DNA from: Acidimicrobiales bacterium
Lineage (GTDB): Bacteria > Actinomycetota > Acidimicrobiia > Acidimicrobiales > Aldehydirespiratoraceae
NCBI GenBank assembly: GCA_033344915.1
Contig: JAWPML010000001.1
Location: forward strand, 2,228,369 to 2,292,368
Reading direction: 5' to 3'
DNA: 64,000 nucleotides
Part shown: positions 7,895 through 49,543 of the stretch, piece by piece
Numbering within the stretch: position 1 is the stretch's first letter
Layout: the number at the start of each line of letters is the position of its first letter
Notes under the pieces: model-generated
Seen by the model: the letters and a program-made list of their open reading frames with translations, nothing else
What the model was told of the DNA's origin: nothing
Database searches by the model: none
Program-made: the position numbers and the translations under genes

Positions 7895-7976
7895 GATGGC
7901 CCCGACGCTACCAGCGCCGTGTGACGGGTCTGGCGCACCCTCGCGCGGACCGCGCGATCAATCGCGCGTGAGGAGG

Positions 7977-9389
7977 TTATCCACAGCCCTGCGGGCCGGA
8001 TTCGTGCTCGTTGCCCGGCGTCTCCGCGGAGACGTCGACGGCGCGCCGTCGCGCGATGTGCTGGGCGAGCACGCTCACCACGAAGTGGAAGTCGAGCCGG
8101 TCGTTCGCCTTCGATTCGATGGATCTCGGCGTGATGCGCAGCGGTTGCTGCGACGCGACGAGGGTGTCGGCGTCGCCGCGGAGCGGTTCGACCGTGGCCG
8201 GGACACCGTCGGGGTCCGACCACACCACCGCCCCATCGGCGATCGCCACCGCCCAACCGCCCTCGTGGACCAGCCGGTGATGGAAGCCGCACAGGCTCAC
8301 GAGGTTGTCGAGGTCGGTCGGCCCGTCGTGGCTCCAATGGACGATGTGGTGGGCATGCAGCCACGAGGAGACGCCACAACCCGGGAACCGACACAGACCA
8401 CCGTCGCGCCGATGCAGCGCCCGGCGGAGCTTGCGGTTGAGCACGGGGGTGTCGCGACCTTCGTCGTGGACGTGACCCTCGTGCTCGAGCATGACCGACG
8501 CCCGGATGTCACAGCACCAGCGCTTCGCCACCTCCGGCGCGATCCGTCGGCCGGACAGGGTGATCTCGCCGGCTTCGGCCTCCCCAGCATCGTCGGCGTT
8601 GTCGTCGGCGGCGGCGATCTCGGCCAGCCCGTCGGTGTCGATCACCAGCGCCAACCGGCCGACGTCACCACGAACGGCGGCAGCCGGGGTCGAGGCGACC
8701 GCCCGCTCGGCCACCTGGGTGAGCGCGTCGAATCGCATCGCCGCCATTCCGCCACGCTCGGCCATCACCTCCCGACGGGTGCGCCCCGACCCGGCCACCG
8801 CCTCGTCGACCATCTGCGAGACCACGACCTCCACCGCGGCCCAGATCACCTCGACCGCGTCGGCGGGGCCGATGATCTTCATCTCGTCCTGCCCGTCGGG
8901 CCGGCGGCCCCGGGTGACCATCCGGCGCTCGAAGGCCCGGCGGGCATCGGCGTTCTCGCCCCGGGCGATCGCCGCCCGTGCGGCGGACACGGACTTCTCG
9001 AGTTGGGCTCCCGTGGAGTGTCGGGCCATCTCCACCCACTCGTGTTCGTCGGCCGGTACGGCGACCCTCGTGACGGCGCGCACCTTGGTGAACGACAGCT
9101 CTCCCGCCGCGAACGACGCCGCGAGCACCGGGAGGGACTCCAGCGCACGCGCCGTACGCACCTTCTCGCGCGCGGCATGGAGCCCGTCGCCACACTTCCA
9201 CGCCAACCATTGGGCCGCCGACGCGCAGCCCCAGGTACGCCACCCCTCGCGCCGGTCGTACTCGGCGATCCACATCAGCAGCCGGGCACTGGCCGCGGCG
9301 ATGTGGCCGGAGAGCTCGGCGATCTCGGCTTCCAGCCGCTCGAGCGGCATGTCCGCCGGCGAGATTCCCGTCGTGTCGATCACGGTCAT
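7977..9389 (-). CDS. DUF222 / HNH endonuclease (13E12 repeat family)
   Basis: This 470-residue protein has the DUF222 helical domain in its first 300 residues and a C-terminal HNH nuclease site: CRFPGCG, then HAHHIVHWSHDG, NLVSLCGFHH and a final H. Family members are multicopy in many actinobacterial genomes and are suspected to be selfish or repeat-associated; their role is not settled. The ATG at 9389 was chosen because GAGG lies just upstream and the N-terminal MTVIDTTGIS suits the family. The open frame continues much farther upstream only as antisense to the kinase gene. A 16-bp perfect palindrome lies near the 3' end inside the gene and an 18-bp version lies upstream, both encoding VSAET in this frame. 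Confidence 0.85.
   Translation of the reverse strand: MTVIDTTGISPADMPLERLEAEIAELSGHIAAASARLLMWIAEYDRREGWRTWGCASAAQWLAWKCGDGLHAAREKVRTARALESLPVLAASFAAGELSFTKVRAVTRVAVPADEHEWVEMARHSTGAQLEKSVSAARAAIARGENADARRAFERRMVTRGRRPDGQDEMKIIGPADAVEVIWAAVEVVVSQMVDEAVAGSGRTRREVMAERGGMAAMRFDALTQVAERAVASTPAAAVRGDVGRLALVIDTDGLAEIAAADDNADDAGEAEAGEITLSGRRIAPEVAKRWCCDIRASVMLEHEGHVHDEGRDTPVLNRKLRRALHRRDGGLCRFPGCGVSSWLHAHHIVHWSHDGPTDLDNLVSLCGFHHRLVHEGGWAVAIADGAVVWSDPDGVPATVEPLRGDADTLVASQQPLRITPRSIESKANDRLDFHFVVSVLAQHIARRRAVDVSAETPGNEHESGPQGCG
8019..8034. repeat. 16-bp perfect palindrome, copy 1 (inside HNH gene 3' end)
   Basis: The sequence CGTCTCCGCGGAGACG is its own reverse complement. In the HNH gene frame it contributes VSAET, 15 codons from the end. 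The same 16 bases recur at 9462-9477 on the upstream side of the gene, so the endonuclease gene is bracketed by the two copies. Confidence 0.85.
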
Positions 9390-9403
9390 CGGATCCTCGT
9401 TTC

Positions 9404-9421
9404 TCGTTGTCGTTCCAACGA
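9404..9421. promoter_or_regulatory. Inverted repeat just upstream of the HNH gene
   Basis: TCGTTG (9404-9409) and CAACGA (9416-9421) form a 6-bp inverted repeat with a 6-base spacer, 15 bases upstream of the HNH start. In this position it could be a regulator site or leader hairpin. It is short enough to be chance. Confidence 0.3.
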
Positions 9422-9432
9422 AAATACCGAGG

Positions 9433-9445
9433 GGGTGTGACACCC
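9433..9445. promoter_or_regulatory. GGGTGT-N-ACACCC inverted repeat upstream of HNH gene
   Basis: This perfect 6-bp inverted repeat around one central base lies 44 bases upstream of the HNH start, in the 132-base divergent gap shared with the kinase gene. It is a plausible operator for a dimeric regulator. No regulator gene is adjacent. Confidence 0.35.
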
Positions 9446-9460
9446 ACGGATGGCGATCGG

Positions 9461-9478
9461 ACGTCTCCGCGGAGACGT
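9461..9478. repeat. 18-bp perfect palindrome, copy 2 (upstream of HNH gene)
   Basis: ACGTCTCCGCGGAGACGT is a perfect 18-bp palindrome whose central 16 bases are identical to 8019-8034. It lies 44 bases upstream of the kinase start and 72 bases upstream of the HNH start. Two copies bracketing an HNH endonuclease gene suggest a recognition or insertion site, or a small repeat family. Confidence 0.85.
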
Positions 9479-9521
9479 TCTTGCCGCTTCGGCTGCGCTC
9501 AGCCGTCGATAGGGTCCTCGG

Positions 9522-10415
9522 ATGATCACCGTCCCCGAGATCGTGCAGGAGAAGGCTCGGGTGGAGGGCGTTGCCTGGTGGATCGACGCCGCGCCACGCG
9601 TGGTGGAGGATCTCGCCGCTGCGTGGCAGTTGGAGGTCGGACCGGTGCTCACCGGAGGAACCGAGTCGCTCGTCGCCGAGGTCGTCCTGTCCGACGGCCG
9701 GGACGCGGTGCTGAAGGTCCTCATCCCCCGCCAGGACTTCGCCTCCGCCGAGGCGCTCGCGCTGCAGCGGGCGGACGGGCGTGGCGCAGCTCGGCTCTTC
9801 GCGTACGACGAGGAGCACGGCGCCCTGCTCCTCGAGCGCCTGGGGCCACCGTTGGATCGTGCCGGATTGCCGGCCGCCGCGCGGCACGAAATCCTCGCCC
9901 GCGCCGCACAGGCGTTCTGGCGCCCGATCGAGCCGGGTCTGCTGCGCGACGGCACCGAGCAGGCGACGTGGCTGGCCGACTGCATCGAACGCATGTGGGT
10001 GGACCTCGGCCGTCCGTGTTCGCGCGCGGCGATCGACCACGCGTTGTCGTGTGCCGAGCGGCGGGCGGCCGCGCACGACGACGAGCGCGCCGTCCTCGTG
10101 CACGGCGACGTCCACCAGTGGAACACGCTGCGCCGAGGAGACGAGTGGGTCCTGATCGATCCCGACGGCCTCTTCATGGCGCCCGCGTACGACCTCGGGA
10201 TCATCATGCGGGAGGACCCCGAGGAGCAGCTGAGCGGCGATCCCCGCGACCGCAGCCGTCGGCTCGCCGCGCTGACCGGTGTCGACGAGACCGCAGTGTG
10301 GGAGTGGGGCGTCGTCGAACGGGTCGCCACGGGACTCACCGCCCGCTCGATCGATCTCGAACCGGTGGCGACCACCATGCTCGCCGTCGCGGACCGACTG
10401 GCCGCCCGCCGCTGA
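9522..10415 (+). CDS. Aminoglycoside/hydroxyurea-type phosphotransferase family kinase
   Basis: This 297-residue protein resembles the family that includes streptomycin 6-kinase and hydroxyurea phosphotransferase. The catalytic loop VLVHGDVHQWNTL carries the aspartate and asparagine, and the Mg2+-binding loop is VLIDPDG. The N-lobe has a nucleotide-binding lysine in AVLKVLIP. Members phosphorylate small molecules and can inactivate aminoglycosides. The natural substrate here is unknown and resistance should not be assumed. The gene is alone on the plus strand between the HNH gene and the LuxR-type regulator. Its stop lies 4 bases from the convergent LuxR-gene stop. Confidence 0.85.
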   Translation: MITVPEIVQEKARVEGVAWWIDAAPRVVEDLAAAWQLEVGPVLTGGTESLVAEVVLSDGRDAVLKVLIPRQDFASAEALALQRADGRGAARLFAYDEEHGALLLERLGPPLDRAGLPAAARHEILARAAQAFWRPIEPGLLRDGTEQATWLADCIERMWVDLGRPCSRAAIDHALSCAERRAAAHDDERAVLVHGDVHQWNTLRRGDEWVLIDPDGLFMAPAYDLGIIMREDPEEQLSGDPRDRSRRLAALTGVDETAVWEWGVVERVATGLTARSIDLEPVATTMLAVADRLAARR

Positions 10416-10419
10416 CAGC

Positions 10420-13035
10420 TCAGCCCAGGGCGGGCGCGAGGACCACGGCGAGTTCCTCGCGGCTGGCGACGTCGAGCCGTCGATAGACGGCTCGCAGGTG
10501 GTTGTCGACGGTACGCCGCGCGACCACGAGGCGATCGGCGATCTCCTGGCTCGAGAGCCCGCGCCCGGCGAGGCCGGCGATCTCGTGCTGCCGTTCGGTG
10601 AGCCCCCGCGGTGCGTCGGCGAGGGCGGGAGGCATGGTGCCGGAACAGCGCCGCCACCAGATCTCCGATCGGGCCGCCGATCTGGCCTGCGTCGTCTCGT
10701 CGCGGCCGTGGCGGGACGCCTGCGCCGCTGCCTCGGCGGCGAGGAGCGGGCACCCCAGGGCGGCTAGGTCGTGAGCTGCGGTGTCGAGACCGGCCGCGCT
10801 TGCGGCGACGAGCGACTCACCGTGCGCGGCGAACGCCCCCACCAGCGCCCCTCCGATCTCCGTCGCAGCCGCCGTCAGGTCGTCGATCACGAGCTCGGCC
10901 GCGCCCAGTCGCACCGCCTCGTGGAGTCCGACGACGCCCCACAACCGGTGACCGGCCTCCATCGCCAGGCGCGCCGCGGACGCGGCCTCGCCGGCACCCA
11001 CCGTGCGCTCGCCGCGCCGCACCGCCTCCCAGGCGCGCCGGCGCCCGGCCGCGATCTCGCGAATTCTGGGGTCGGTGATCCCGACCGCGGACTCTGCAAC
11101 CCGAGCGAGCGTGGTTGCCATGCCGGGCCGACCGGCCTGCCACGCGGCGGTGGCGCCGACCGCGGCGGAGAAGGGTCGCAAGCCGAACGGGTCCATGGCC
11201 CGGAAGCTGCGATCGGCATCGAAGGCCGCCGCCGCGGCGCCGTCGAGATCGCCGGTGAGCGGACCTGAGAACGCGACGCACAACCCCCACATACCGAGCG
11301 GCTCACCACGCGCCGTCGCGGCGGCGAGGGCTGTGGTGGCCGCGGCGTGGGCCTCGCCGACCCCACCCCGGCCCACGAGCGCGAGATGTTCGCACACCGC
11401 GATGCGGGCCTGGATCAGCGGCTCGGGATCGTGGTCTTCGACCGACGCGCGAAGCCGAGCGAGCACCGAGTCCAGCCCGCCGAGGTCGAGGTGCAGACAC
11501 CGCAGCAAGGCGACGGCCAGTAGTTCCTCCGTCCGCGCGTCAGAGACCCGAGCATCGACGGGTCCGGAACCGGTGACGGTGTCGACCGGCTCGACGAAGG
11601 AGCGGACGAGCTCCTGCTCGCGCGACAGCCGCCGCGTCGCGCCGGGGTCCGAGACCGTGGTCGCCGCCGCGTCGAGATGCCGCAACGCCGCGTCCGGCGC
11701 CCGATTGAGCAACGTCTCGATCTGGGACCGCAGAACGGCGATGTCGGCGCGCTGCCCGTCATCGTCGGCGTGCGTCGCCGCGACATCGAGTTCGGCGAGC
11801 GCATCATCTGCGCGACGACCGCGACGGAGACACTCCGCGAGGACCAGACGCACGGACACGTCGTCGGGCTGCGCGGTCGACGCGGCATCGGCCAAGTGCT
11901 CAGCGAGGTCGAGGTCGGACTCGTCGAGGGCCAGACGGGCGAGTCCGGCGAGGTCCGCGGTGCCCAGCGGCACCGCGGACTCGATGGCCCACCGGGCGTG
12001 ACGAAGCGCCCACGACGCGTCTGGCTCCGGGTGGACGCCGGCCAACCGCGCGAGGTGCCGGCGTCGCGCCGCGGGACCCAATCCGGCGGCCACGCACGCG
12101 GCGACCAGCGGCCGGGCGGGCAGAATCGCACCGGACTCACCAGTCCGGGCTGAATCCAGCAGTTCGGCCCGCTCGAGCTCCTCACGGGCGTCGTCGTCGA
12201 GCACCACGTCCGCGACGAGCGCCGGCAACGGCGCGCCGACCGCGACGAGCTCGTACGCGCGCCGAGCACCGTCGCCGAGCCCGGCGAGGTGCTGGTCGAC
12301 GACGGCGCGGAGGCCGCTCGACACCGTGATCTCGCCGGTCCAATGCCAGACCTCGGCATCGGGGTCGACGCCCCCGGCGCGGTCGATGGCGTCGAGAAGG
12401 AGCTCCAGGTCACGGGGCCGACCACCCGTGTGATCCCAGAGCCGCTGGGCGCTCTCACGGGTCACCGGCCTGTCGCACACCGTGCCGACGAGCTGATCGT
12501 GCGCCTCCCGGCCGAGCGGCCCGATGTCGATGATGGTCGTGTCGGTCGTGGCGAAGGACCAACCCGTGGCCGCGGGCGCGGCTCGGGCATCGCGCCCGAC
12601 GATCACGATCCGGGACCCCCGCCGGCTCCGGAGACGCTCCAGGAGCGCGACGGACGCGTCGTCGAGCCACTGCGCCTCGTCGACCACCATGAGGAGGTCC
12701 ATGCCGTCGGCGGCATCGAGAAGATCCTGTTCGAGTGCAGCGATCACACCCAGTCGGTCGGCGGTGTCCAGTGCGCCGTCACGCGCGGCGAGCGGCGCCA
12801 CGGCGCCGAACGGCACGGTGTGGAGCGCCCGCGACGCAACGCTCGTGCACACGTGCCAGCCCCGCCGACTTCCGTGCTCGACGACGCATTCGAGCAATCG
12901 GGACGTCCCCGCGCCCGGAGTGCCGACGAGCGCGACGGGGCGCCGGGACGGATCGTCGAGCGCCTCCCGGATGCGCCGGTCCTCGCTCTCTCGCCCGATC
13001 AGCGGCCATGCCATCGCCGGCAGCGTACCGACCAT
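10420..13035 (-). CDS. LuxR-family transcriptional regulator with N-terminal AAA-type ATPase domain
   Basis: This protein of about 871 residues combines an N-terminal NTPase domain (PLIGRESEDRRI), a long alpha-helical solenoid-like middle and a C-terminal LuxR helix-turn-helix (GLTERQHEIAGLAGRGLSSQ, then VDNHLRAVYRRL). This is the layout of the LAL regulators related to MalT. Walker B is clear (LLMVVDEAQWLDD). Walker A reads GTPGAGTSR, so the invariant lysine is replaced by threonine. The start is uncertain: ATG 13035 has a GGGTGG stretch upstream; GTG 13066-13068 would overlap the previous gene by 11 bases; ATG 13014 directly precedes WPLIGRE. Target genes are unknown. Confidence 0.85.
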   Translation of the reverse strand: MVGTLPAMAWPLIGRESEDRRIREALDDPSRRPVALVGTPGAGTSRLLECVVEHGSRRGWHVCTSVASRALHTVPFGAVAPLAARDGALDTADRLGVIAALEQDLLDAADGMDLLMVVDEAQWLDDASVALLERLRSRRGSRIVIVGRDARAAPAATGWSFATTDTTIIDIGPLGREAHDQLVGTVCDRPVTRESAQRLWDHTGGRPRDLELLLDAIDRAGGVDPDAEVWHWTGEITVSSGLRAVVDQHLAGLGDGARRAYELVAVGAPLPALVADVVLDDDAREELERAELLDSARTGESGAILPARPLVAACVAAGLGPAARRRHLARLAGVHPEPDASWALRHARWAIESAVPLGTADLAGLARLALDESDLDLAEHLADAASTAQPDDVSVRLVLAECLRRGRRADDALAELDVAATHADDDGQRADIAVLRSQIETLLNRAPDAALRHLDAAATTVSDPGATRRLSREQELVRSFVEPVDTVTGSGPVDARVSDARTEELLAVALLRCLHLDLGGLDSVLARLRASVEDHDPEPLIQARIAVCEHLALVGRGGVGEAHAAATTALAAATARGEPLGMWGLCVAFSGPLTGDLDGAAAAAFDADRSFRAMDPFGLRPFSAAVGATAAWQAGRPGMATTLARVAESAVGITDPRIREIAAGRRRAWEAVRRGERTVGAGEAASAARLAMEAGHRLWGVVGLHEAVRLGAAELVIDDLTAAATEIGGALVGAFAAHGESLVAASAAGLDTAAHDLAALGCPLLAAEAAAQASRHGRDETTQARSAARSEIWWRRCSGTMPPALADAPRGLTERQHEIAGLAGRGLSSQEIADRLVVARRTVDNHLRAVYRRLDVASREELAVVLAPALG

Positions 13036-38478: not shown

Positions 38479-39234
38479 ATGCAGGCGATCGAGCGAACCT
38501 TCGGCATTCTCGGCGCGCTGGCCGAGCACCCGGAACGGGCCGGGGTCAGCGAGATCGCCCGACGGGCCGATCTGCCGAAGAGCACGACCTCGCGGATTCT
38601 CGCCAGCCTCGAGTCGCTCGGCATGGTCGAACGGATCGGCGATCAGTACGGCATCGGCGCCGCCCTCGCGACCCTGACCCACGGGGCGTCCCCGATCGGA
38701 TCGCTGCGCGAGGTCGCCCGGCCCCAGCTGGTCGAGCTCGCCGATGCGTTCGGGGAGAACGCGTCGCTCGTGGTCGACGACGGCGACATGGTGCTCTACA
38801 TCGACACGGCGACCCCGTCCGACACCCAGGTGCAGGTCCAGGACTGGACGGGCGAACGCCTGCCCTTCCACCCGGCGGCGGGTGGGCTGTCGCTGATGAG
38901 CACCTGGCCCGACGAGCGGGTCGCGGCGCTCGTCGACGACGGCCTCGAAGCGTTCACGGACGCGACGGTGACCTCGATCGAGGCGTTGCGCGCCAAGCTC
39001 CACGACGTGCGCACCCGCGGCGTCGTCTGGACGATCCAGGAGTTCGCCGACGACGTGAACGGCATCGGCGCACCGATTCTCGGCCCGGACGGCGCGGCGG
39101 TCGGGGCCATCAACGTCTACGGGCCGACCTATCGCTTCCCGGGCGACCGGACGGCCGCAATCGAAGCCGCCGTGCTCGACGCGGCCCACCGGATCGCCAC
39201 CCGCCTGGTCGGCACCGCTCAGACCTCGAGATAG
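38479..39234 (+). CDS. IclR family transcriptional regulator
   Basis: This 251-residue protein has the N-terminal winged helix (VSEIARRADLPKSTTSRILA, LGMVERIGDQYGIG) and the C-terminal ligand-binding domain (ENASLVVDDGDMVLYID, HPAAGGLSLMS, GIGAPILGPDG). It is transcribed away from flavoprotein A across a shared palindrome, so it likely controls the demethylation genes and itself in response to a methylated amine. Its last 16 bases overlap the convergent microprotein gene at the end of the Dlt-like operon. Confidence 0.92.
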   Translation: MQAIERTFGILGALAEHPERAGVSEIARRADLPKSTTSRILASLESLGMVERIGDQYGIGAALATLTHGASPIGSLREVARPQLVELADAFGENASLVVDDGDMVLYIDTATPSDTQVQVQDWTGERLPFHPAAGGLSLMSTWPDERVAALVDDGLEAFTDATVTSIEALRAKLHDVRTRGVVWTIQEFADDVNGIGAPILGPDGAAVGAINVYGPTYRFPGDRTAAIEAAVLDAAHRIATRLVGTAQTSR

Positions 39235-39362
39235 CGGAACGGCGCGCCCGGCTCCGCCCAGAACCACCAGATCGCCACGATCGCGGCGGCGAGCACGATC
39301 GCCGTCACGACGACCGCGACGGGACGAGGCAGCACGGACGCCACGAGCCGGAAGATGACCAC
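39219..39362 (-). CDS. 47-residue membrane microprotein with C-terminal Tyr hexapeptide (DltX-like)
   Basis: This GTG-initiated frame begins one base after the MBOAT stop and encodes 47 residues. A short N-terminus (MVIFRLVASVLPRP) is followed by one membrane helix of about 20 residues (VVVTAIVLAAAIVAIWWFW) and a short outside tail, AEPGAPFRYLEV. The last six residues FRYLEV fit the pattern F-x-Y-x-E-hydrophobic. In the Dlt pathway the microprotein DltX ends in a comparable hexapeptide whose tyrosine receives the acyl group from the MBOAT and passes it to the outside transferase. Size, topology, motif and operon place all agree. Homology itself is not shown, and the frame is too short for routine gene calling. 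Confidence 0.72.
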   Translation of the reverse strand: MVIFRLVASVLPRPVAVVVTAIVLAAAIVAIWWFWAEPGAPFRYLEV

Positions 39363-39363
39363 G

Positions 39364-40482
39364 TCACCAGCCTCCCACGAAGAGGTCGCGGAACTCGTCG
39401 AGCATGACGTCGACGGATGCGGCCCGCGTGATCGTGAACCCGGCCATCACGAACGCGACGGTGAGCAGCGTCGCCGCACCCCGGGAGACCAGGCCCGCAC
39501 GGGCGGGGCCCCGTCGATCCGCGTACGCACGATGGATCGCCAGCCCGGCGGCGTGGTACGCGCCCCAGATCAGGTAGCGAGCGGTCAACTCGTGCCACAG
39601 CCCGATCGCGACCATCGTCACGGTGATCGCCGGCACGTGGCGACGCCATTGGGCCATTGCCGGCCGGTACAGATAGTCCGTCGCCCAGCGGGTGAGCGAG
39701 ATGTGCCACCCCCGCCAGAAGTCGGCGATGTTGCGCTGCAGGAACGGACGGTGGAAGTTCGGCAGCACCCGGATGCCCTGGAGATTCGCGATGCCGATCG
39801 CGACCGCACTCCATCCTGCGAACGCGGCGTAGAGGTTCGCGCCGTACTCGACCGAGCGCAGCGCCGACACGAGGCCGGCCCGTTCCGGGTCGATGCCGTC
39901 GATCCAGTCGCCGAACCAGCGGGACACGACGATGTTGGCGATCACCACGGCCGTGAACAGCCCGACGACGACCCGCTCGACCCCCTGGGCCAGGACCGCC
40001 GGGTCGGCCCGGTGGCGACGGAACTCCCGCTCGTGGTCGGGGAACCGGTGGATCGGACCGATCACGAGCAGCGGCCAGTACCAGAGGTAGCTGCACAGGG
40101 CGAGCAGCGACGGTGGGCGAAGACGCCCCGAACGGACGTCGATCACGACGTGGGCGACCCGCGGTGCCGTGTAGGCGAAGCCGAGCAGGGTCGCGACCGT
40201 GGCGACGTCGCGCTCGGCCGAGTCCATCGCCAGGAGCTTCGCCAGCACGAAGGCCGTCGCGATCGTGACGAGGGCGATCGCGGTGCGACTCGCCCGCGCC
40301 CCACGTGTGCCGAGGAAGGCGATCGTCGTCGCGCCGACGAGGGCGGCGGCACCGACCGGCGAGGCCGCGGTGAGGAGAACCACGCCCACGGCGAGGTTGA
40401 CGCGGGCGCGATGGCGATGGGGCGTGATCCAGTGGATCGCCACGGCGACCGCGACGGCGAGGATCCAGCGTCCGTCGATCAC
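39364..40482 (-). CDS. MBOAT-family membrane O-acyltransferase (DltB-like)
   Basis: This 372-residue polytopic protein has the MBOAT signatures: IADFWRGWHISLTRWATDYL, and GLWHELTARYLIWGAYH with the catalytic histidine at about position 297. Around ten membrane helices are present. DltB and AlgI are of this class and take an acyl group from a cytoplasmic thioester and carry it across the membrane. The GTG start overlaps the SGNH stop by 4 bases, and the microprotein follows after one base. The protein itself ends LFVGGW, without an acyl-shuttle hexapeptide; that motif is on the microprotein. Confidence 0.88.
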   Translation of the reverse strand: MIDGRWILAVAVAVAIHWITPHRHRARVNLAVGVVLLTAASPVGAAALVGATTIAFLGTRGARASRTAIALVTIATAFVLAKLLAMDSAERDVATVATLLGFAYTAPRVAHVVIDVRSGRLRPPSLLALCSYLWYWPLLVIGPIHRFPDHEREFRRHRADPAVLAQGVERVVVGLFTAVVIANIVVSRWFGDWIDGIDPERAGLVSALRSVEYGANLYAAFAGWSAVAIGIANLQGIRVLPNFHRPFLQRNIADFWRGWHISLTRWATDYLYRPAMAQWRRHVPAITVTMVAIGLWHELTARYLIWGAYHAAGLAIHRAYADRRGPARAGLVSRGAATLLTVAFVMAGFTITRAASVDVMLDEFRDLFVGGW

Positions 40483-41318
40483 CCGTCGCTCCTGTCGAGC
40501 GCCTCGTGCACCAGCGCGGCGACGGTCGCGGACACCACCGCGCGACCGTCGTCGTTGACATGCGTCCAGTCGCAGAACGAGTCGAGACCGAGCTCGACGC
40601 CGGCCTCGACGGGCCCGATCACGTTCGGCTCTCCGGCCAGCGCGTCGAACAGCACCGCCCGCCAGGCCTCGTCGACGCCGTCGATCGCCTCGATGATCGG
40701 CGGCGATCGCGGGGGTACGTAGAGCACGATCGCCACGCCGTTGCGGGCCGCGTGGTGGACCAACTCGAGTGCCTCGGCGACATACGGCACGGTGGTCGTG
40801 TGCCGGGCGAGGTTGCGCTCCACCGACGTCTCGAAGGCCCGGTCCGTCTGTTCGGGACAGCGACGCGTGTCGAGCGGCGCGAGGTCGGGCGGGTCGAAGC
40901 GGCGACGCAGCCGCTCCCGCAGCGTGTTCTCGTCGTCGCGCACCTCCGGTCGGAAGACGTCCGGTTGGAGGACGAGCACGTCGGGGTCGGCCGCCCACAC
41001 CCGGTCGAGGATCGGCGCGAACGTCTCGTAACCGGCCGCGCTGTAGCCGAGGTTCACCGCACCGACCCGTCGGTCCTCGGTGCTGAGCACGGCGCTCAGT
41101 TCCGCCGCGGTCCCGAGCGCGTTGCGGTCGAGGCTCGTGCCGAGCACGACGACTCGATGATCGACGTCGGCCCCGCCGAGGCCGTCGAGCAGCTCCACCA
41201 TCTGGACCTGGTAGGGATGCAGGGTCTCGGTGGTCCGGTCGGCGACGAACCAGGCGATCCCGAGCAGGGCCACCACGAGCCCGACGATCGTCGCCAACTC
41301 ACCGCGGCGTGGCGTCAC
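40479..41318 (-). CDS. Membrane-anchored SGNH-type acyltransferase (DltD/AlgX-like role)
   Basis: This 279-residue protein has one N-terminal membrane helix (residues about 9-26) and an outside domain. The likely nucleophile is Ser62 in VVLGTSLD and the acid/base pair is D250 and H253 in DWTHVNDDG, the GDS-like and DxxH blocks of the SGNH fold. In Dlt and alginate acetylation systems such proteins take the acyl group delivered by the MBOAT and put it on the polymer. GTG 41318 was chosen because it overlaps the ligase stop by 4 bases (GTGA); an ATG 24 bases upstream is possible. Confidence 0.82.
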   Translation of the reverse strand: MTPRRGELATIVGLVVALLGIAWFVADRTTETLHPYQVQMVELLDGLGGADVDHRVVVLGTSLDRNALGTAAELSAVLSTEDRRVGAVNLGYSAAGYETFAPILDRVWAADPDVLVLQPDVFRPEVRDDENTLRERLRRRFDPPDLAPLDTRRCPEQTDRAFETSVERNLARHTTTVPYVAEALELVHHAARNGVAIVLYVPPRSPPIIEAIDGVDEAWRAVLFDALAGEPNVIGPVEAGVELGLDSFCDWTHVNDDGRAVVSATVAALVHEALDRSDG

Positions 41319-43123
41319 GTGGGCAGCTGATCCCGAACGCATTCCACGATGTCACCGAGCGATCGGATGCCGATCACCGCGGTGTTGGACAACTCGATCG
41401 TCCAGTGCTCCTCGACCGCGGCCACGAGCTCCATGTGCGCGAGCGAGTCCCAACCCGGCGTGGCATCGATGTCGCTGCCGAGCGACAACGCCGCGACGTC
41501 GACACCGAGCACCGTCGCGGCGAGCTCCAGCACCGTCTCGTCGACCGAGCTGCCGGTCACCGCGACCCGGTCGAGCTCGGCGAGCGTCACCGCGACCGCC
41601 CGCGCGTCGATCTTTCCGGCCGGAGTCCGGGGCAGGGCCTCCAGCCGCACCACCTCCCGAGGAACCTTCTCCGGCGCGAGCTGCCCCCGGCAGTACGAGA
41701 GCACGGCGGCCGGGTCGAAGGGGTCGCCCGCCGTCACGGCGGTGACGACACGCTCTCCCCACACGGCGTCGTCGAGGCCCACGGTGCACGACTCGACGAC
41801 GCCCGGAGCGGCACCGACCACGTCGTCCACCTCGTCCGGGGCGACGTTGGTGCCGGCCGTGATGATCATCCGTGACGCACGACCGACGATGACGAACGCC
41901 CCGTCGTCGGTCCGGCGGGCGAGGTCGCCGGTACGGAAGCGGGTGCCGTCGAACACGGCCGCGGTCGCCGCCGGGTCGCCGAGATACCCGGAGAAGAGAT
42001 GGTCGCCCTCGATGACGAGTTCGCCGACCTCCCCGTGGGCCGCAGGTGCACCGTCCTCGCGCACGATGGAGATGGTCGCGTCCAGTGGTCGACCCACCGT
42101 CCCGACGGCACGGCCGGTCTCGGCCGTCGGCCCGCTCAGCAGGCTGCTCGTGACCGTCTCCGTGAGGCCGTAGCTGTTGCACACGGTCACCCCGAACTGG
42201 TCCTCGATCCGACGCCAGAGACGCTCGCCGAGCGGTGCGGCGTTCGAGACGATCGAGCGGAAGTCGTCGGTGCGGAACGCATCGTGGAAGTCCGCGCCGA
42301 GCCGATCCAACAACGCCAGGATCGTCGGCACGGTGATCATGTGGGTCACCCGGTGCGTGTACACGGCGTCGACGATCTCCGGCAGCGCCCCGACCGAGAA
42401 CGCGCCGGGCCGGACCCACGTGCCGCCGTTGACCCACGCCTGGAGCGGACCCTGCACGAGCCCGTCGCTGTGATGGAGCGGGAGCACGTTGTGGATGACG
42501 GTCGCGTCGTGGTCGAGCGCCCGGCGCAGACTCTCGAGGTGCACCGACAGCGCCCGCCGGCTGAGCAGGACGCCCTTCGGCGCGGCGCTCGAGCCGGAGG
42601 TGAACATGATCAGGGCGATCGACGCCGCGTCGCCCGCCGAGTCGACCGCGACCGGTTCGATCCCCGCGAGCCGCTCCGTCAGTTCGTCGGCCGGACCGGC
42701 GGACTTCCGGCGACCGAGGAGCCGCGACGCCATGGTGGGCCGAGCGACGGCGTCGAGGGGCAGCAGCGCCACACCGCACTGGGCCGCGCCGCTCGACTCG
42801 ACGGCCGTGCGGTCGACGACGATGAGCTCGGGTTCCACGAGTCCGACGGCATGGTGGAGTTCGCGGGGTCGGGCCGAGGGGTCGACAACGGCGAGCGTGC
42901 GGCCGGACCCGACGACGGCCGTGAGCACCGCGGCGACGTGACGGGGTTCGGCGCTCATGAGCACGACCCGTCCGGTCGCGCTCACGTTCTCGGCGTCGAG
43001 CAACCCGGCCAGGCGACCGGCCCGGTCGCGCAGCTCGCCGTAGGTGAGGGAGCCGTGCTCGTCGACGAGGAACGTCGCGCGGTCCGGGGTGTCGCGGGCG
43101 CGGGCGTGGAGGTCGGCGGTCAT
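41315..43123 (-). CDS. AMP-forming ligase fused to acyl/peptidyl carrier domain (DltA-DltC-like fusion)
   Basis: This 602-residue protein has an ANL-family adenylation domain (FTSGSSAAPKG, NSYGLTET, FRTGDLARR) including the C-terminal lysine motif RTPAGKIDA. A carrier domain occupies the last 75 residues, with the phosphopantetheine serine at position 560 (GWDSLAHMEL). It can therefore load an acid onto its own carrier arm, as DltA does for DltC. ATG 43123 overlaps the stop of the upstream gene by 4 bases. The substrate cannot be read from motifs; the ligase resembles fatty-acyl/aryl ligases as much as D-alanine ligases. Confidence 0.88.
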   Translation of the reverse strand: MTADLHARARDTPDRATFLVDEHGSLTYGELRDRAGRLAGLLDAENVSATGRVVLMSAEPRHVAAVLTAVVGSGRTLAVVDPSARPRELHHAVGLVEPELIVVDRTAVESSGAAQCGVALLPLDAVARPTMASRLLGRRKSAGPADELTERLAGIEPVAVDSAGDAASIALIMFTSGSSAAPKGVLLSRRALSVHLESLRRALDHDATVIHNVLPLHHSDGLVQGPLQAWVNGGTWVRPGAFSVGALPEIVDAVYTHRVTHMITVPTILALLDRLGADFHDAFRTDDFRSIVSNAAPLGERLWRRIEDQFGVTVCNSYGLTETVTSSLLSGPTAETGRAVGTVGRPLDATISIVREDGAPAAHGEVGELVIEGDHLFSGYLGDPAATAAVFDGTRFRTGDLARRTDDGAFVIVGRASRMIITAGTNVAPDEVDDVVGAAPGVVESCTVGLDDAVWGERVVTAVTAGDPFDPAAVLSYCRGQLAPEKVPREVVRLEALPRTPAGKIDARAVAVTLAELDRVAVTGSSVDETVLELAATVLGVDVAALSLGSDIDATPGWDSLAHMELVAAVEEHWTIELSNTAVIGIRSLGDIVECVRDQLPT

Positions 43124-45840
43124 GGGGCGGGCAGGCGGTCGACGAGGTCGATCCGGTCGGGGGTCTTGTCGGGCCCGAGCGTCTCGTGCAGGCGCGTTCG
43201 GAGATCGGCGACGAGGTACTCCCGGCCGGCATCGGGAATCGCGACGACCAGGGCTCGCAGCTCGCCCCGCTCCGCCGTCGTCGCCACCGTGCAGGAGGCG
43301 ACGCCCGGGTGGGCGCGGATCGCGTTCTCGATCTCCGCACCCGAGACCCGCTCGCCGACGCGATTGTTCAACAGTGCGTCGTTGCGCCCGAGTAGGCGGA
43401 CCGTTCCCCGCTCGTCGACGACACCCTGGTCGCCGGTGTGGATCCACCCGTCGTGACGAGCCATCACTGCATCGCCCACATAGCGGCCGGCGATGCCTGG
43501 CCCACTGACCCGGATCTCCCCCACCTCGCCGACCGCGGCGCGCCGACCGTCGACATGCACCTCGACCACCGCGCCGAGCGCCCGCCCGAGCGACCCGTCC
43601 GCTTCGGCATGGGGCAGGCTGCCCGCGCAGAACCCGCCGGTCTCGGTGAGGCCGTAATAGTCACCCACCCGGACGCCGGTCGAGCGTTCGAACCGGGCGG
43701 CCCGGGCCGGGTCGAGAGGCGAGCCGGTGCTGAGGAGCAGGCGAAGGGCGCCGAGCGGCCGGGACGCGGGCAGGCGGTCGGCCTGGGTCTCGATTGCCGA
43801 GACGAAGCTGGGCCCGGCGGTGAGCACGGACACGCCGGTGCGGCGGACGCACTCCGCCGCACCGAGGCCGTGCTGGGCGTCCGGGCCGGGGACGACCACG
43901 CTCGCGCCCGCCCGGAGCGCGACGAGCGACGGGTTGCGCAGACCGGACATCGTGTGGAAACCGCTCAGCGACATCAGGGTGTCGTCGTGACGCAGGCCGG
44001 CGAAGTCGGCGACGCCGGCCGACGTGTGCATCAGCGAGCGCATCGTCAGTTCGACGCCCTTCGGCTCGCCGGTGGTGCCCGACGTGAAGAGGACCGCGGC
44101 CGCGACGTCCGGACCTTGGTCCGCCCCGGGGGGCGGCGGGGCATCGAGAAACGGTTCGACGACGACGGCGAAGTGCTCCTCGGCCAGCTCGGCCTCCAGG
44201 TCGACCGGGTCGAACACGACGACGGCGTCGTCCCGGAAGCGGTGGCGATGCCGGTCGTCGACGAACACGGCCTTCGGGGTGATCTCGCACCGAATGGCCT
44301 GGACCGCGGCCGGCGTCGATCTCGTCGGCAACGGGACGACGACGAGCCCCGCCCGCCAGGCCGCCCAGATCGTCATCAGGTACTCGGGATGCGGCTCGGC
44401 CATCAGCGCGATCGCGTCGCCTTCGACGAGTCCGCGATCCGCGAACCAGCCCCGCAGGCCGTCGGTGACGACGGCGACGTCCTCCACGGTGAAGATGCTC
44501 CCGTCGTCTGCAGCCAGCAGCGCGCCGTCGCCGTAGCGAGCCGGAAGGACGTCCCAGAGCGCGGCGAAGTCGTCGCCTTCCGGCCGGAGGTCCACGTAGG
44601 TCCGCTGCGACGCCGCCGTGGCCGGCGCCACCTCCGCGACCACGGCGAGCCCCCGGTCCACGAGGTCGGCGACCGGTTCGCGGAGGCCCTCGACCGTTGC
44701 ATCGAGCCGGTCGGCGATCTGGCCGAGCGTGAGCCCGGCCCGGGCGTGGACCACCAGCTGCAGCTGCCGACTGGTGAGATCCGGGGCGAGCCCGATCCGG
44801 TCGACACAGACCGCGTGCCGGGCCGTCATGTACTCGACGACGCTTCCGGGGCGGGCGTCGTCGACGGAGACAGCGCCGCCGGTCAGGTCGATGTCCACGA
44901 GGGGGTTGACGAAGAGTGTGGCGCTCGACGAGTCGATCGGGAGCGGCGGCGCCGCCAGCGTGCGGCCCTCCCAGGCCTCGTCGGCGATGAGGACGAGACC
45001 GTTGTAGTGCTCGGTGTCACGTTCGTCGCGGACGGCGAACGACGCACGTTCGGTGTAGGCACGGGCCTCGCTCATCACCCATGCCCGCCGCCGGTCACCC
45101 GCGAGCCGTGCGTCGAGGAACTCGCCCCACTCCCGACCGTGCCGCTGGGTGCAGCCGCGCTCGAACCACGGGTCCGGTTCGCTGTTCGTGAGATGGATGT
45201 GGGGGAAGACGACGACCGCGTCGGCGTCGCCCACCCGCAGGACCTCGTCCAGCAACGCCGCCTCCGGGTAGCGATGCAGCGTGTCGAGGCCGTGCACGAC
45301 CCGGAACGAATCGTCGACGAAGGGCAGCGGGTCGCCGGGGTGGGCGAACGCGAGCGTCAGGTTGTCCGGGCGGCCAGCCGACGGGAGCGCCTCCAGGAAC
45401 CCGCCGTAGCCGAGCTGGTCTGTGTCGCCCTCCCAGATCGAGACGACCTCGACGTCGGGGAACAAGCCGGCGAGCCACGCTCCCGTCCAGCCCGTCCGGT
45501 TCCACAGATCGAGGATGCGACCACCGCCGATCAGCGCCTCCTCCAGGATCGGCAGGAGCGGTTCGAGCGCGCGGCTCGATTCGTTGAACGGACGGAACCA
45601 CGCGTACGGCTCCCGATGCCCCCGGCGCCGCCGCGCCTCGGACAGCGCCACGAACCCCTCCCGGAAGCGGGGAGCGTCGTCCGTCGCGAACGCCACCGGG
45701 TCGCGACCGCGTTCACCGAAGAACGCGATGCCGTCCACGACCGGGACGGCCGAGCGGCAGCGCTCGCACCAGAGGCCGCCGCCGACCTCCGCCAACCGGC
45801 CCCGACACGTCGGGCACGCGCCACACCCCGAACCCCACAC
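43120..45840 (-). CDS. Zinc-ribbon / methyltransferase-like / AMP-ligase fusion protein
   Basis: This 906-residue protein has four parts. Residues 6-30 form a Trm112-like zinc ribbon (CPTC, CERC). Residues about 75-290 look like a Rossmann methyltransferase, but motif I reads ILDLWNRTGWTG instead of D-x-G-x-G. A helical segment with a helix-turn-helix look (LTLGQIADRLDATVEGL) follows. The last 450 residues are an ANL ligase (VLFTSGTTGEPKG, YYGLTETGG, HTGDQG), which stops at DRLPAP, just where the catalytic-lysine motif should begin. GTG 45840 is the only suitable start before the zinc ribbon and lacks a clear ribosome site. It is the first gene of the Dlt-like operon. Confidence 0.8.
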   Translation of the reverse strand: MWGSGCGACPTCRGRLAEVGGGLWCERCRSAVPVVDGIAFFGERGRDPVAFATDDAPRFREGFVALSEARRRRGHREPYAWFRPFNESSRALEPLLPILEEALIGGGRILDLWNRTGWTGAWLAGLFPDVEVVSIWEGDTDQLGYGGFLEALPSAGRPDNLTLAFAHPGDPLPFVDDSFRVVHGLDTLHRYPEAALLDEVLRVGDADAVVVFPHIHLTNSEPDPWFERGCTQRHGREWGEFLDARLAGDRRRAWVMSEARAYTERASFAVRDERDTEHYNGLVLIADEAWEGRTLAAPPLPIDSSSATLFVNPLVDIDLTGGAVSVDDARPGSVVEYMTARHAVCVDRIGLAPDLTSRQLQLVVHARAGLTLGQIADRLDATVEGLREPVADLVDRGLAVVAEVAPATAASQRTYVDLRPEGDDFAALWDVLPARYGDGALLAADDGSIFTVEDVAVVTDGLRGWFADRGLVEGDAIALMAEPHPEYLMTIWAAWRAGLVVVPLPTRSTPAAVQAIRCEITPKAVFVDDRHRHRFRDDAVVVFDPVDLEAELAEEHFAVVVEPFLDAPPPPGADQGPDVAAAVLFTSGTTGEPKGVELTMRSLMHTSAGVADFAGLRHDDTLMSLSGFHTMSGLRNPSLVALRAGASVVVPGPDAQHGLGAAECVRRTGVSVLTAGPSFVSAIETQADRLPASRPLGALRLLLSTGSPLDPARAARFERSTGVRVGDYYGLTETGGFCAGSLPHAEADGSLGRALGAVVEVHVDGRRAAVGEVGEIRVSGPGIAGRYVGDAVMARHDGWIHTGDQGVVDERGTVRLLGRNDALLNNRVGERVSGAEIENAIRAHPGVASCTVATTAERGELRALVVAIPDAGREYLVADLRTRLHETLGPDKTPDRIDLVDRLPAP

Positions 45841-45883: not shown

Positions 45884-48328
45884 TCACATCTTCGGACGCT
45901 CGTTCCCGGGGTCGTACCACGAGCCGATGCCGCAGGAGACGGGAACCCGGGCACCGGCGATGTTGGTCTCCCATGTGCCGGCCGCGATCCACTCCTTGGT
46001 GATCGCCTCGTCGTGTTCGACATAGCCCATCGCGCAGCAGCGACCCTGGGTCGCGCTCCACATCGACGACGACGTGCGACCGACGACAAGACCGTCGCGG
46101 TAGAGCGGTTCGTCGTGATACGTGAGCAACTCCGGATCCTCGATCCGGAACTGGAGGAGCCGCTTCGTCCGCGGCGCGGCCCGCTGGGCGTCGAGCGCGG
46201 CACGGCCGACGAAGTCGACGGGCTTGTCCCAGGCGACCGCGAAGCCGAGACCGGCCTCGAGCGGGGTGTCCTCGTCCGTGATGTCGTGGCCCCAGTGCCG
46301 CATGCCGGCCTCGAGGCGCAGGGCGTTCATGGCGTGGTAGCCCGCGTGGACGAGGCCGTGGCTCCTGCCGGCTTCCACGACCGCGTCATAGACCGCGACC
46401 GCGTCCGCATTCGCCACGTAGAGCTCCCAACCGAGCTCGCCGACATAGCTCATCCGCAGGGCGAGCACGTCGGCCCCGGCGATGTCGATGGACTGACCCG
46501 TGCCGAACGCGAAGCCGTCGTTCGACAGGTCGGCGCGGGTGAGCTCGGCCAGGAGCGCACGGGAGTTCGGCCCCATCACGCCGAGCACGGCCTGGTCGTG
46601 GGTGACGTTCGCGAGGGTGACGTCCCGGCCGACGGCCGCCCGCCGCAACCATGCCCAGTCGCGGGTCTCGCTCGCCGCCGCGGTCACGACGAAGAACCGA
46701 TCCTCGCCGAGCCGGTTCACCGTGAGGTCGGCCTCGATACCGCCGCGGTCATTGCACCATTGCGTGTACACGGCCCGGCCGAGAGGGGCGTCGATGTCGG
46801 CGACGCTGATCCGGTTCAGCACCTCGAGCGCGTCGGGCCCCTCCACGGTGAACTTCGCGAACGAGGTCTGGTCGAACAGACCGACCGTCTCCCGCACGCC
46901 GAGGCACTCCCGGACCATGTTGTCGTGCCAGTTCTGCTTGCCGTACGAGTACGTGTACTCACGGGTCTGGCCGGGGTTGGCGTACCAGTTCGGACGCTCC
47001 CAGCCCGCGAGCTCGCCGAAGACGGCGCCGGCCCCCTCGATCCGCTCGTGCAGGGGCGACAGCCGGATGCCCCGCGCACTCTCGTACTGGCGGAACGGCC
47101 AGTGCATCGCGTAGAGCAGGCCGAGGCTCTCGGAGACACGGTCCCGGAGGTACGCCTCGTCCGCCTGGAACGGCTGCGCCCGGCGGATGTCGACCGAGTT
47201 GAGATCCATGGGCGGGTGCGCGTCGGCGATCCAGTCCGCGAGCGCCCAACCGACCCCACCGGCGGACTGGATGCCGACCGAGTTGAAGCCGGCGGCCACG
47301 TAGCAGTTGTCGACCTCGGGGGCTTCGCCCAGGTAGTAGACGCCGTCCGGGGTGAACGCCTCCGGTCCGTTGAAGAAGAGCTGGAGTCCGCACTCCCCGA
47401 GCGCGGGGACCCGATGGATCGCCCGCTCGAAGATCGGGCCGATGTGCTCCCAGTCCTCCGGCAGGCTCTGGAACGAGAAGTCGCGCGGGATCCGGTCCAT
47501 CCGCCAGACCTTCCCCCGCGGCTCGAAGAAGCCGGCCATGATCTTGCCGGTCTCCTCCTTGAAGTACGTGTGGTTGCCGGGGTCACGCAGGGTCGGCGTG
47601 CCGATCACCATGCCCTCGACCGGTTCGGTGACGATGTAGAAGTGCTCGCACGCCTGGAGCGGCACGTTGACCCCGATCTGCGCGGCGAGGTGGCGGGTCC
47701 ACATGCCGGTCGCCAGCACCACGATCTCCGCTCCGATCGCGCCCTGCTCAGTGATCACGCCGGTCACCCGCCCGTTGCGCGCCGTGAGATCGGTGACGGC
47801 GACGTTCTCGATGATCGTCGCGCCGCGGGACTTCGCGCCCTTGGCGAGCGCCATGGTGGTGTCGACGGGCGACGTCTGCCCGTCGCGCGGGATGTAGAGC
47901 GCGCCGACCAGGTCGTCGGTACGCATCAACGGCCAGCGCTCGCTCGCCTCGTCGAGGTCGATGACGCGGGTCTCCACACCGACACCCTCCGCCATCGTGG
48001 CCCCACGCAGGATCTCCTCCCAGCGCTCCTGGTTGTCCGCCACCGACAGTGAGCCGGGCGTGCGGTAGCCGGTCGCCTGGCCCGTCTCGTCCTCGAGCTC
48101 CTCGAACAGGCGGGCCGAGTAGGTGGCCAGCTTCGTGAGCGAATGCGTCGACTTGAGCTGGGACACGAGCCCTGCCGCATGCCAGGTGGTGCCGCAGGTG
48201 AGCGTTCCCTGCTCGAGCACGACCACGTCGGTGATGTCGCGCCGGGTCAGGTGGTAGGCGATGCTCGCGCCCACGATCCCGCCGCCGACCACGACAACCT
48301 GCGCGCGCTCCGGGACGATGGGTGGCAT
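45884..48328 (-). CDS. Dimethylglycine/sarcosine dehydrogenase-like flavoprotein (copy B)
   Basis: This 814-residue protein has the same three-domain layout as copy A: FAD domain (VVVVGGGIVGASIAYHL), covalent-FAD histidine in TTWHAAGL, middle FAO domain, and GcvT-like domain (VGLFDQTSFAKFTV, SYVGELGWELYV). The probable substrate is an N-methylated amine, with the carbon going to folate. The two copies differ clearly in sequence, so they are old paralogs with possibly different substrates. Copy B lies just upstream of the Dlt-like operon (43 bases to its first start), so read-through is possible. It is divergent from the kinase-like gene at 48395. Confidence 0.87.
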   Translation of the reverse strand: MPPIVPERAQVVVVGGGIVGASIAYHLTRRDITDVVVLEQGTLTCGTTWHAAGLVSQLKSTHSLTKLATYSARLFEELEDETGQATGYRTPGSLSVADNQERWEEILRGATMAEGVGVETRVIDLDEASERWPLMRTDDLVGALYIPRDGQTSPVDTTMALAKGAKSRGATIIENVAVTDLTARNGRVTGVITEQGAIGAEIVVLATGMWTRHLAAQIGVNVPLQACEHFYIVTEPVEGMVIGTPTLRDPGNHTYFKEETGKIMAGFFEPRGKVWRMDRIPRDFSFQSLPEDWEHIGPIFERAIHRVPALGECGLQLFFNGPEAFTPDGVYYLGEAPEVDNCYVAAGFNSVGIQSAGGVGWALADWIADAHPPMDLNSVDIRRAQPFQADEAYLRDRVSESLGLLYAMHWPFRQYESARGIRLSPLHERIEGAGAVFGELAGWERPNWYANPGQTREYTYSYGKQNWHDNMVRECLGVRETVGLFDQTSFAKFTVEGPDALEVLNRISVADIDAPLGRAVYTQWCNDRGGIEADLTVNRLGEDRFFVVTAAASETRDWAWLRRAAVGRDVTLANVTHDQAVLGVMGPNSRALLAELTRADLSNDGFAFGTGQSIDIAGADVLALRMSYVGELGWELYVANADAVAVYDAVVEAGRSHGLVHAGYHAMNALRLEAGMRHWGHDITDEDTPLEAGLGFAVAWDKPVDFVGRAALDAQRAAPRTKRLLQFRIEDPELLTYHDEPLYRDGLVVGRTSSSMWSATQGRCCAMGYVEHDEAITKEWIAAGTWETNIAGARVPVSCGIGSWYDPGNERPKM

Positions 48329-48394
48329 CGGCCGGAGGCTAGACCGTCGCTTGCAATTCGGACACTGATCCGGGCGTGTCGTATCTTGCGCTCG

Positions 48395-49543
48395 ATGAGT
48401 GACGACACCACGGCCGAAGACGACGTCAGCAGCGCCCCGAAGTTCCACACGGATCGCAGCCACTACGGCCCCGCCTTCGAGGCGTGGTTCGCGAGCCGGC
48501 ATCCGGAGCGCACCGACATCACCGTCACCGAGATCGACATCCCGGTCTCCACCGGCTTCTCGAACGAGACGGTGTTCGTCGACCTCGCGTGGACCGAAGT
48601 GGGCGAGTCCCGCACCGACAAGTACGTCGCCCGCATCGAGCCGACCGGCGGTGCGCTCTTCCCCGCCCAGACGGACCAGTGCGGTGTGTCCGTGGAGGTT
48701 CAGTACCGAGCGATGCAGACGGTCGGGGCCCACTGCGACGCCCCGGTGCCGGAGCTGCTCGGCTACGAGGCCGATCCGTCCGTCCTCGGGCAGCCGTTCT
48801 TCGTGATGGGCTTCACCGAAGGCCGCGTCCCGTCCGACACGCCGCGCTATTCCGAGGAGGGCTTCCTCGTCGACGAGGCGACCCCCGAGGACCGCACCCG
48901 CATGGTGACCACCGGTCTGCGGGCCATGGGGCAGATCCACAACATCGACTGGCGCACGGCCGACCTCGACTGGCTCGACACGAGCGGCACCGGCGAGCCG
49001 TCCACCAAGGTCCAGCTCGACCTCTACCGGGCTTCCACGCTCGCCGAACTCGACGGGCGGCCCCACCCGGTGCTCGACGCGGCGTTCGACTGGCTGTACG
49101 AGCACGATCCGCACGACGATCGCATCGGCCTCAGCTGGGGCGACTCCCGCCTCGGCAACATCCTGTGGCAGGACTACACCCCGGCCGCCGTCGTCGACTG
49201 GGAAGCGTGCGCGCTCTCCCCCACCGAGGCCGACGTCGGTTGGTGGCTGATGTTCGACCGCATGTCGTTCGACGAGCCGGGGAACCCCCGCATGGAGGGC
49301 TTCCCCACCCGCGAGGAGATGGTCGAGATCTACGAGCGGGAGTCCGGGCGCGAGGTCCGCGACCCCCACTACTGGGAGGTTTTCGCCACGATGCGGTTCT
49401 GTGCGATCTTCATCGGGCTCGCCGACCGGATGGTCGCCAACGGCCTCGTTCCCGCCGAGATGAACATGGCCATCGCGAACATGGTGACCCAGTCACTCGC
49501 CACCCACCTCGACATCGAGAACCCCACCCCCAGCGCCTTCTGA
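48395..49543 (+). CDS. Phosphotransferase family protein (APH fold, ACAD10/choline kinase-like)
   Basis: This 382-residue protein has the aminoglycoside-phosphotransferase fold. The catalytic loop is GLSWGDSRLGNILW, with Asp and Asn present and Ser in place of the first His as is common in this group. The metal loop is AAVVDWEACALSP. This subgroup is widespread in Actinobacteria next to acyl-CoA or LLM-type genes; substrates are hydroxyacyl or other small alcohols. ATG 48395 is a short distance from the divergent flavoprotein. The stop precedes a 14-bp inverted repeat shared with the convergent LLM gene. Confidence 0.82.
   Translation: MSDDTTAEDDVSSAPKFHTDRSHYGPAFEAWFASRHPERTDITVTEIDIPVSTGFSNETVFVDLAWTEVGESRTDKYVARIEPTGGALFPAQTDQCGVSVEVQYRAMQTVGAHCDAPVPELLGYEADPSVLGQPFFVMGFTEGRVPSDTPRYSEEGFLVDEATPEDRTRMVTTGLRAMGQIHNIDWRTADLDWLDTSGTGEPSTKVQLDLYRASTLAELDGRPHPVLDAAFDWLYEHDPHDDRIGLSWGDSRLGNILWQDYTPAAVVDWEACALSPTEADVGWWLMFDRMSFDEPGNPRMEGFPTREEMVEIYERESGREVRDPHYWEVFATMRFCAIFIGLADRMVANGLVPAEMNMAIANMVTQSLATHLDIENPTPSAF

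Follow-up and report, generated by a model that had tools for sequence, protein, structure and literature searches.

Five consecutive genes on the minus strand, here called G1 to G5, lie within positions 39219-45840 of the window, the 64,000-nt stretch of DNA that we analysed (Table 1). The original prediction described five minus-strand genes joined by 4-base overlaps or one-base gaps, and the reading frames and junctions confirmed this arrangement, with three 4-base overlaps (ATGA, GTGA, and GTGA) and a single 1-base gap. The GC content at codon position 3 was 0.90-0.92 across all five genes, including 0.917 in the 47-codon G5, and this fits real coding sequence throughout. Pfam domains were found in three of the genes: AMP-binding in G1 and G2, PP-binding in G2, and MBOAT in G4. 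A convergent IclR gene overlaps the 3' end of the cluster. An FAD oxidoreductase/GcvT fusion (dimethylglycine-dehydrogenase-like) lies on the other side, 44 bases upstream of G1, and has no evident functional link to the five genes. No tRNA or Rfam features were found in the cluster part of the window. When the flanking IclR gene was used in an empty-site test, its homologues in the genus had at most 42% identity and were without a matching flank.

Table 1. Coordinates and assignments of the five genes and of other features mentioned in the text.
Feature	Sequence	Coordinates	Strand	Length (aa)	Start	Assignment	Basis
G1	Window	43120..45840	-	906	GTG	Zinc ribbon, class I methyltransferase-fold, winged-helix-like linker, AMP-ligase	Pfam, model, conservation
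G2	Window	41315..43123	-	602	ATG	AMP ligase and phosphopantetheine carrier domain	Pfam AMP-binding, AMP-binding_C, PP-binding
G3	Window	40479..41318	-	279 (alternative 287)	GTG (alternative ATG 41342)	N-terminal membrane helix and likely SGNH domain (Ser62, Asp250, His253)	L066 homologue, triad, weak model
G4	Window	39364..40482	-	372	GTG	MBOAT, His260 (GWHISL), His297 (GLWHE)	Pfam MBOAT, 74.5 bits
G5	Window	39219..39362	-	47	GTG	One-helix microprotein, DltX-like, C-terminus F42-R-Y44-L-E-V47	Sequence and hydropathy
FAD oxidoreductase/GcvT fusion	Window	45884-49369	-			Dimethylglycine-dehydrogenase-like	
Second Dlt-like cassette	L087 (G000:C1, about 3.96 Mb, 3953000-3967000)	6757-12852	-				
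MBOAT of second cassette	L087	6757-8313				MBOAT with added N-terminal domain	Pfam
MBOAT of same-genus genome	L088	6362-7918				MBOAT	
Third Dlt-like cassette	L089 (G202:C18:18000-35000)	about 6275-10290	+				
tRNA-Arg gene	L070	3134-3208					

The ligase and carrier functions expected of such a cluster reside in G2. Its motifs could be placed at position 174 (P-loop), 317 (A5), and Lys504 (A10), and the carrier serine is Ser560 within GWDSL. The carrier is the C-terminal domain of this protein; the cluster contains no stand-alone DltC-type carrier, although the carrier domain itself is present. The proposal that the DltA and DltC roles are fused in one protein is thus supported by the AMP-binding, AMP-binding_C, and PP-binding matches within G2. 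The nearest solved relatives of G2 are oxalyl-, oxalate-, malonyl-, and fatty-acyl-CoA ligases. Its A4 region, LPLHHSDGL in the window and LPLSHVDGL in the orthologue at locus L066 (45% identity), aligns with acyl-CoA ligases and is without the amino-acid Asp; the FDxS that amino-acid ligases carry at A4 is absent. Because of this A4 sequence and these relatives, the substrate of G2 is likely a carboxylic acid that is not an amino acid, which agrees with the suggestion that the acyl group is new, at least in that it is probably not D-alanine.

Positively charged residues precede the single helix of G5, and the protein ends PFRYLEV. The DltX of B. thuringiensis, a protein of 48 aa, shares this layout and ends in FIYNEF (PMC5541007). 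Another paper gives the shuttle motif as FXYXXF, with a tyrosine that carries the acyl group, and presents an acyl-Tyr relay as demonstrated in PatA and as described for DltX (PMC12148441). The FRYLEV end of G5 matches this motif at F and Y, but V takes the place of the final F; Tyr44 is a candidate acyl-tyrosine site. Among the 832 window frames of at least 30 aa, G5 is the only one that ends in F.Y..[FVLIMYW]. The other loci that we fetched contained 60 matches to this pattern in 8,745 frames, and 57 of the 60 were in frames of at least 300 aa, the length range of fetched MBOATs with a terminal shuttle motif. The three shorter matches were an MBOAT fragment, a weakly hydrophobic chance match, and a microprotein at locus L087 that is discussed below. 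Since G5 is the sole match in the window and the matches elsewhere are mostly MBOAT-sized, its ending is unlikely to be a product of chance.

The preceding gene, G4, aligned to DltB (6bug) over 235 residues (E 1e-26), and both conserved histidines match those of DltB. Its C-terminus (LDEFRDLFVGGW) has no fused shuttle motif. Most relatives in the class end FIYFQF or close variants, and the window genome has a third MBOAT, of the fused type, with the ending FIYFQF. Against the NCBIfam DltB equivalog TIGR04091, G4 scored 150 bits where the cut-off is 375, less than the 174-186 bits reached by fused-motif MBOATs from its own class. The TIGR04091 match alone therefore does not make G4 a DltB, and we found the model unusable as a discriminator for these proteins. 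No close G4 orthologues were found in the class, family, or genus samples, and a contig-wide scan of genomes for its relatives returned only fused-motif-type MBOATs of other phyla.

G3 has one strong helix at its N-terminus. The window protein had no Pfam match above the cut-off, and no DltD match was found for it in Pfam or NCBIfam. Three observations together point to an SGNH fold: the L066 homologue (31% identity) matches PF13472 Lipase_GDSL_2 (E 3e-5, under the curated cut-off), the block I and block V residues S62, D250, and H253 are conserved in that copy, and a structural model of G3 (pLDDT 52, poor) matches SGNH esterases and PatB at Z of about 8. We consider G3 a likely, not proven, SGNH protein; the fold proposed for it held weakly, on a homologue under the cut-off and a low-confidence model. 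A profile search of the PDB with G3 gave nothing significant, no significant similarity linked it to the SGNH-like proteins in the two cassettes described below, and it had no match in viral contigs.

The largest gene, G1, begins with a Trm112/RlmA-like zinc ribbon (C9, C12, C25, and C28). The model of its first 420 residues (pLDDT 73) was best matched by RlmA(I) (1p91; Z 14.5, 207 residues, rmsd 3.8), and like the RlmA(I)/Trm112-type methyltransferases it has a zinc ribbon ahead of a class I methyltransferase fold. Unlike those enzymes, G1 is fused to a ligase domain and has an altered motif I, ILDLWNRTG, in which W113 and R115 replace the usual glycines. Both residues are invariant in three aligned copies and are present in the copy at L085 too, so ordinary SAM binding by G1 is doubtful. 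The ligase domain matches AMP-binding and AMP-binding_C (profile 1-70 of 76) and retains the P-loop, A5, and A7 motifs, but ends with LPAP a few residues short of the A10 lysine. All of the copies (4/4) stop before A10, which argues for a retained, altered function over decay. Rescue of A10 by a frameshift was considered and rejected, as neither the overlapping frame nor the relatives supplied it. Searches for the G1 N-terminus in plasmids gave no match. The label methyltransferase/ligase thus holds for both folds but not for the activities. As a guess, G1 might tailor, hold, or proofread the acyl group.

We used G1 to follow the cluster into other genomes. It was present in four: that of the window, one of the same genus (G325), one of the same family (G336), and one of another family (G384), with conserved copies at loci L066, L070, and L085. 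By search, it was found in 3/397 genomes of the order, 3/51 of the family, and 2/395 of the class, and in the window genome alone (1/396) in the phylum search. In G384 (L066), G1, G2, and G3 occur in order at 42, 45, and 31% identity, followed by 32 codons (MTLSICGFTLVFLLYWTVPSRWKEVVLIAAGG) that resemble an MBOAT N-terminus and run up to the contig end. In G336 and G325, G1 and the start of G2 are present before the contig ends. The full five-gene set was seen in the window genome only, the contigs of the relatives ending before G4 and G5 are complete. Conservation of the five-gene order was borne out in part: one other family has G1-G2-G3 and an MBOAT start, two genomes have G1-G2, and the contig ends hide the rest. 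The sporadic distribution of G1 suggests horizontal transfer or frequent loss. As a separate observation, a tRNA-Arg gene of the same orientation adjoins the start of G1 in G336 (L070); acquired DNA is commonly inserted at tRNA genes.

Two further Dlt-like cassettes were identified. The first, L087, is in the same genome as the window and is apparently complete, with genes for an aldehyde dehydrogenase, a 78-aa carrier, a ligase, a microprotein ending FRYAGF, an SGNH-like protein, and an MBOAT. Pfam backs the ligase and the MBOAT, while the carrier (LLDSL), SGNH-like, and aldehyde dehydrogenase labels are our reading of the sequence, and the SGNH-like protein was without a Pfam match. The MBOAT has an extra membrane helix and an N-terminal domain of about 100 residues, and is nearly identical to an MBOAT at L088 in a genome of the same genus. 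L087 and G1-G5 have in common a carrier, a ligase, a microprotein ending in F.Y, an SGNH-like protein, and an MBOAT; L087 differs in its separate carrier, larger SGNH-like protein, N-terminal extra domain on the MBOAT, and adjoining aldehyde dehydrogenase. The second, L089, is in another genome and encodes a carrier, an amino-acid-type ligase, an MBOAT, an SGNH-like protein, and a microprotein with the ending SPYNNF. This cassette comes after a sulfotransferase-like gene, also so named from its sequence.

Taken as a whole, G1-G5 probably form a Dlt-type system in which an acyl group is carried across the membrane to esterify an extracytoplasmic molecule. The sequences themselves show the parts with their key residues, the order of the operon, and its partial conservation. 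Like Dlt, which D-alanylates teichoic acids, the cluster has a ligase, a carrier, an MBOAT, an SGNH protein, and a one-helix microprotein that carries F.Y at its C-terminus. Unlike Dlt, its ligase is of a non-amino-acid type and is fused to the carrier, its SGNH protein is outside the DltD family, its gene order is different, its shuttle ends in V, and it includes G1. The PatA/PatB system for peptidoglycan O-acetylation also pairs an MBOAT with an SGNH protein and uses an acyl-Tyr shuttle, and the G3 model resembles PatB; however, PatA/PatB have the motif fused to the MBOAT and acetyl-CoA as the donor, whereas in G1-G5 a separate protein bears the motif and a carrier domain is present. The cluster is best called a variant of the MBOAT-SGNH acyl-shuttle systems that works like Dlt but, by the features tested, is not Dlt. 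Of the Dlt-like system originally predicted, the relay of ligase-carrier, MBOAT, one-helix shuttle, and SGNH protein is supported, with the qualifications that the DltB score of G4 (150 against 375 bits) does not by itself make it a DltB and that G3 is not DltD by Pfam or NCBIfam.

A true Dlt system that has been rearranged and D-alanylates a teichoic-acid-like polymer would account for counterparts of all five Dlt roles and for the match of the MBOAT to TIGR04091. We find it improbable, as the A4 region of G2 is acyl-CoA-ligase-like rather than FDxS and its solved relatives are oxalyl, malonyl, and fatty-acyl ligases; by contrast, the ligase of L089 retains FDLSMHD, and its matches are to NRPS and D-Ala ligases. 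In addition, G4 is below the DltB cut-off, G3 is not DltD, and G1 has no Dlt counterpart.

We give equally little credence to G4 and G5 being the halves of a split PatA/AlgI-type O-acetyltransferase that uses acyl-CoA, with the ligases belonging to another pathway. In plain identity, G4 reaches 35% with fused-motif MBOATs of the class, many of which are closer to it than is the DltB fragment (28%), and G5 resembles the last helix and motif of such proteins. However, the cluster has tight overlaps with G2 and a carrier domain within the operon, and the order G1-G2-G3 followed by an MBOAT start is conserved at L066. An IQ-TREE phylogeny also placed G4 with DltB and the microprotein-paired MBOATs of both other cassettes, split from 30 fused-motif-type MBOATs with support of 98.1/98, in an alignment of 233 columns with a single DltB fragment and long branches; the grouping of G4 with DltB could be a long-branch effect.

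Two ligase modules and a methyltransferase-fold domain are typical of natural-product clusters, and with the sporadic distribution they would suit a biosynthetic cluster that makes a small acylated metabolite or lipid, with the MBOAT and SGNH proteins acting on a lipid and not an envelope polymer, but this is very improbable given the unrelated IclR and FAD oxidoreductase/GcvT neighbours, the absence of a PKS and an exporter from the five tightly linked genes, and a shuttle motif that implies transfer outside the membrane.

For the Dlt-type system that we favour, we infer each transfer step from the biochemistry of Dlt and PatAB. G2 would adenylate a carboxylic acid and load it as a thioester onto its own carrier at Ser560. 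G4 would then move the acyl group from the carrier to Tyr44 of G5 (FRYLEV) at the outer face, from which it would pass to Ser62 of the membrane-anchored G3. In the last step, G3 would transfer the acyl group to a hydroxyl on a polymer or lipid of the envelope. Binding or tailoring of the acid, acyl-adenylate, or loaded carrier is the probable role of G1, which would not act as a complete ligase. The more specific proposal, in which carrier-fed, DltX-type export brings a non-amino-acid acyl group to an envelope molecule and G1 is a new kind of helper whose methyltransferase-fold and A10-less ligase domains were repurposed, for example to hold or edit the acyl-adenylate or loaded carrier, seems to us evenly poised between right and wrong.

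MBOAT/SGNH pathways other than Dlt have been described as having neither a carrier protein nor a DltX-like microprotein (2025 paper, PMC12148441). G1-G5 and the two sister cassettes look carrier-fed and microprotein-shuttled, outside the classical dlt operon, and at least one of the three has a ligase that is unlikely to use an amino acid. If this is right, the Dlt relay would serve generally to export several acids, and these bacteria would bear an undescribed ester in their envelope.
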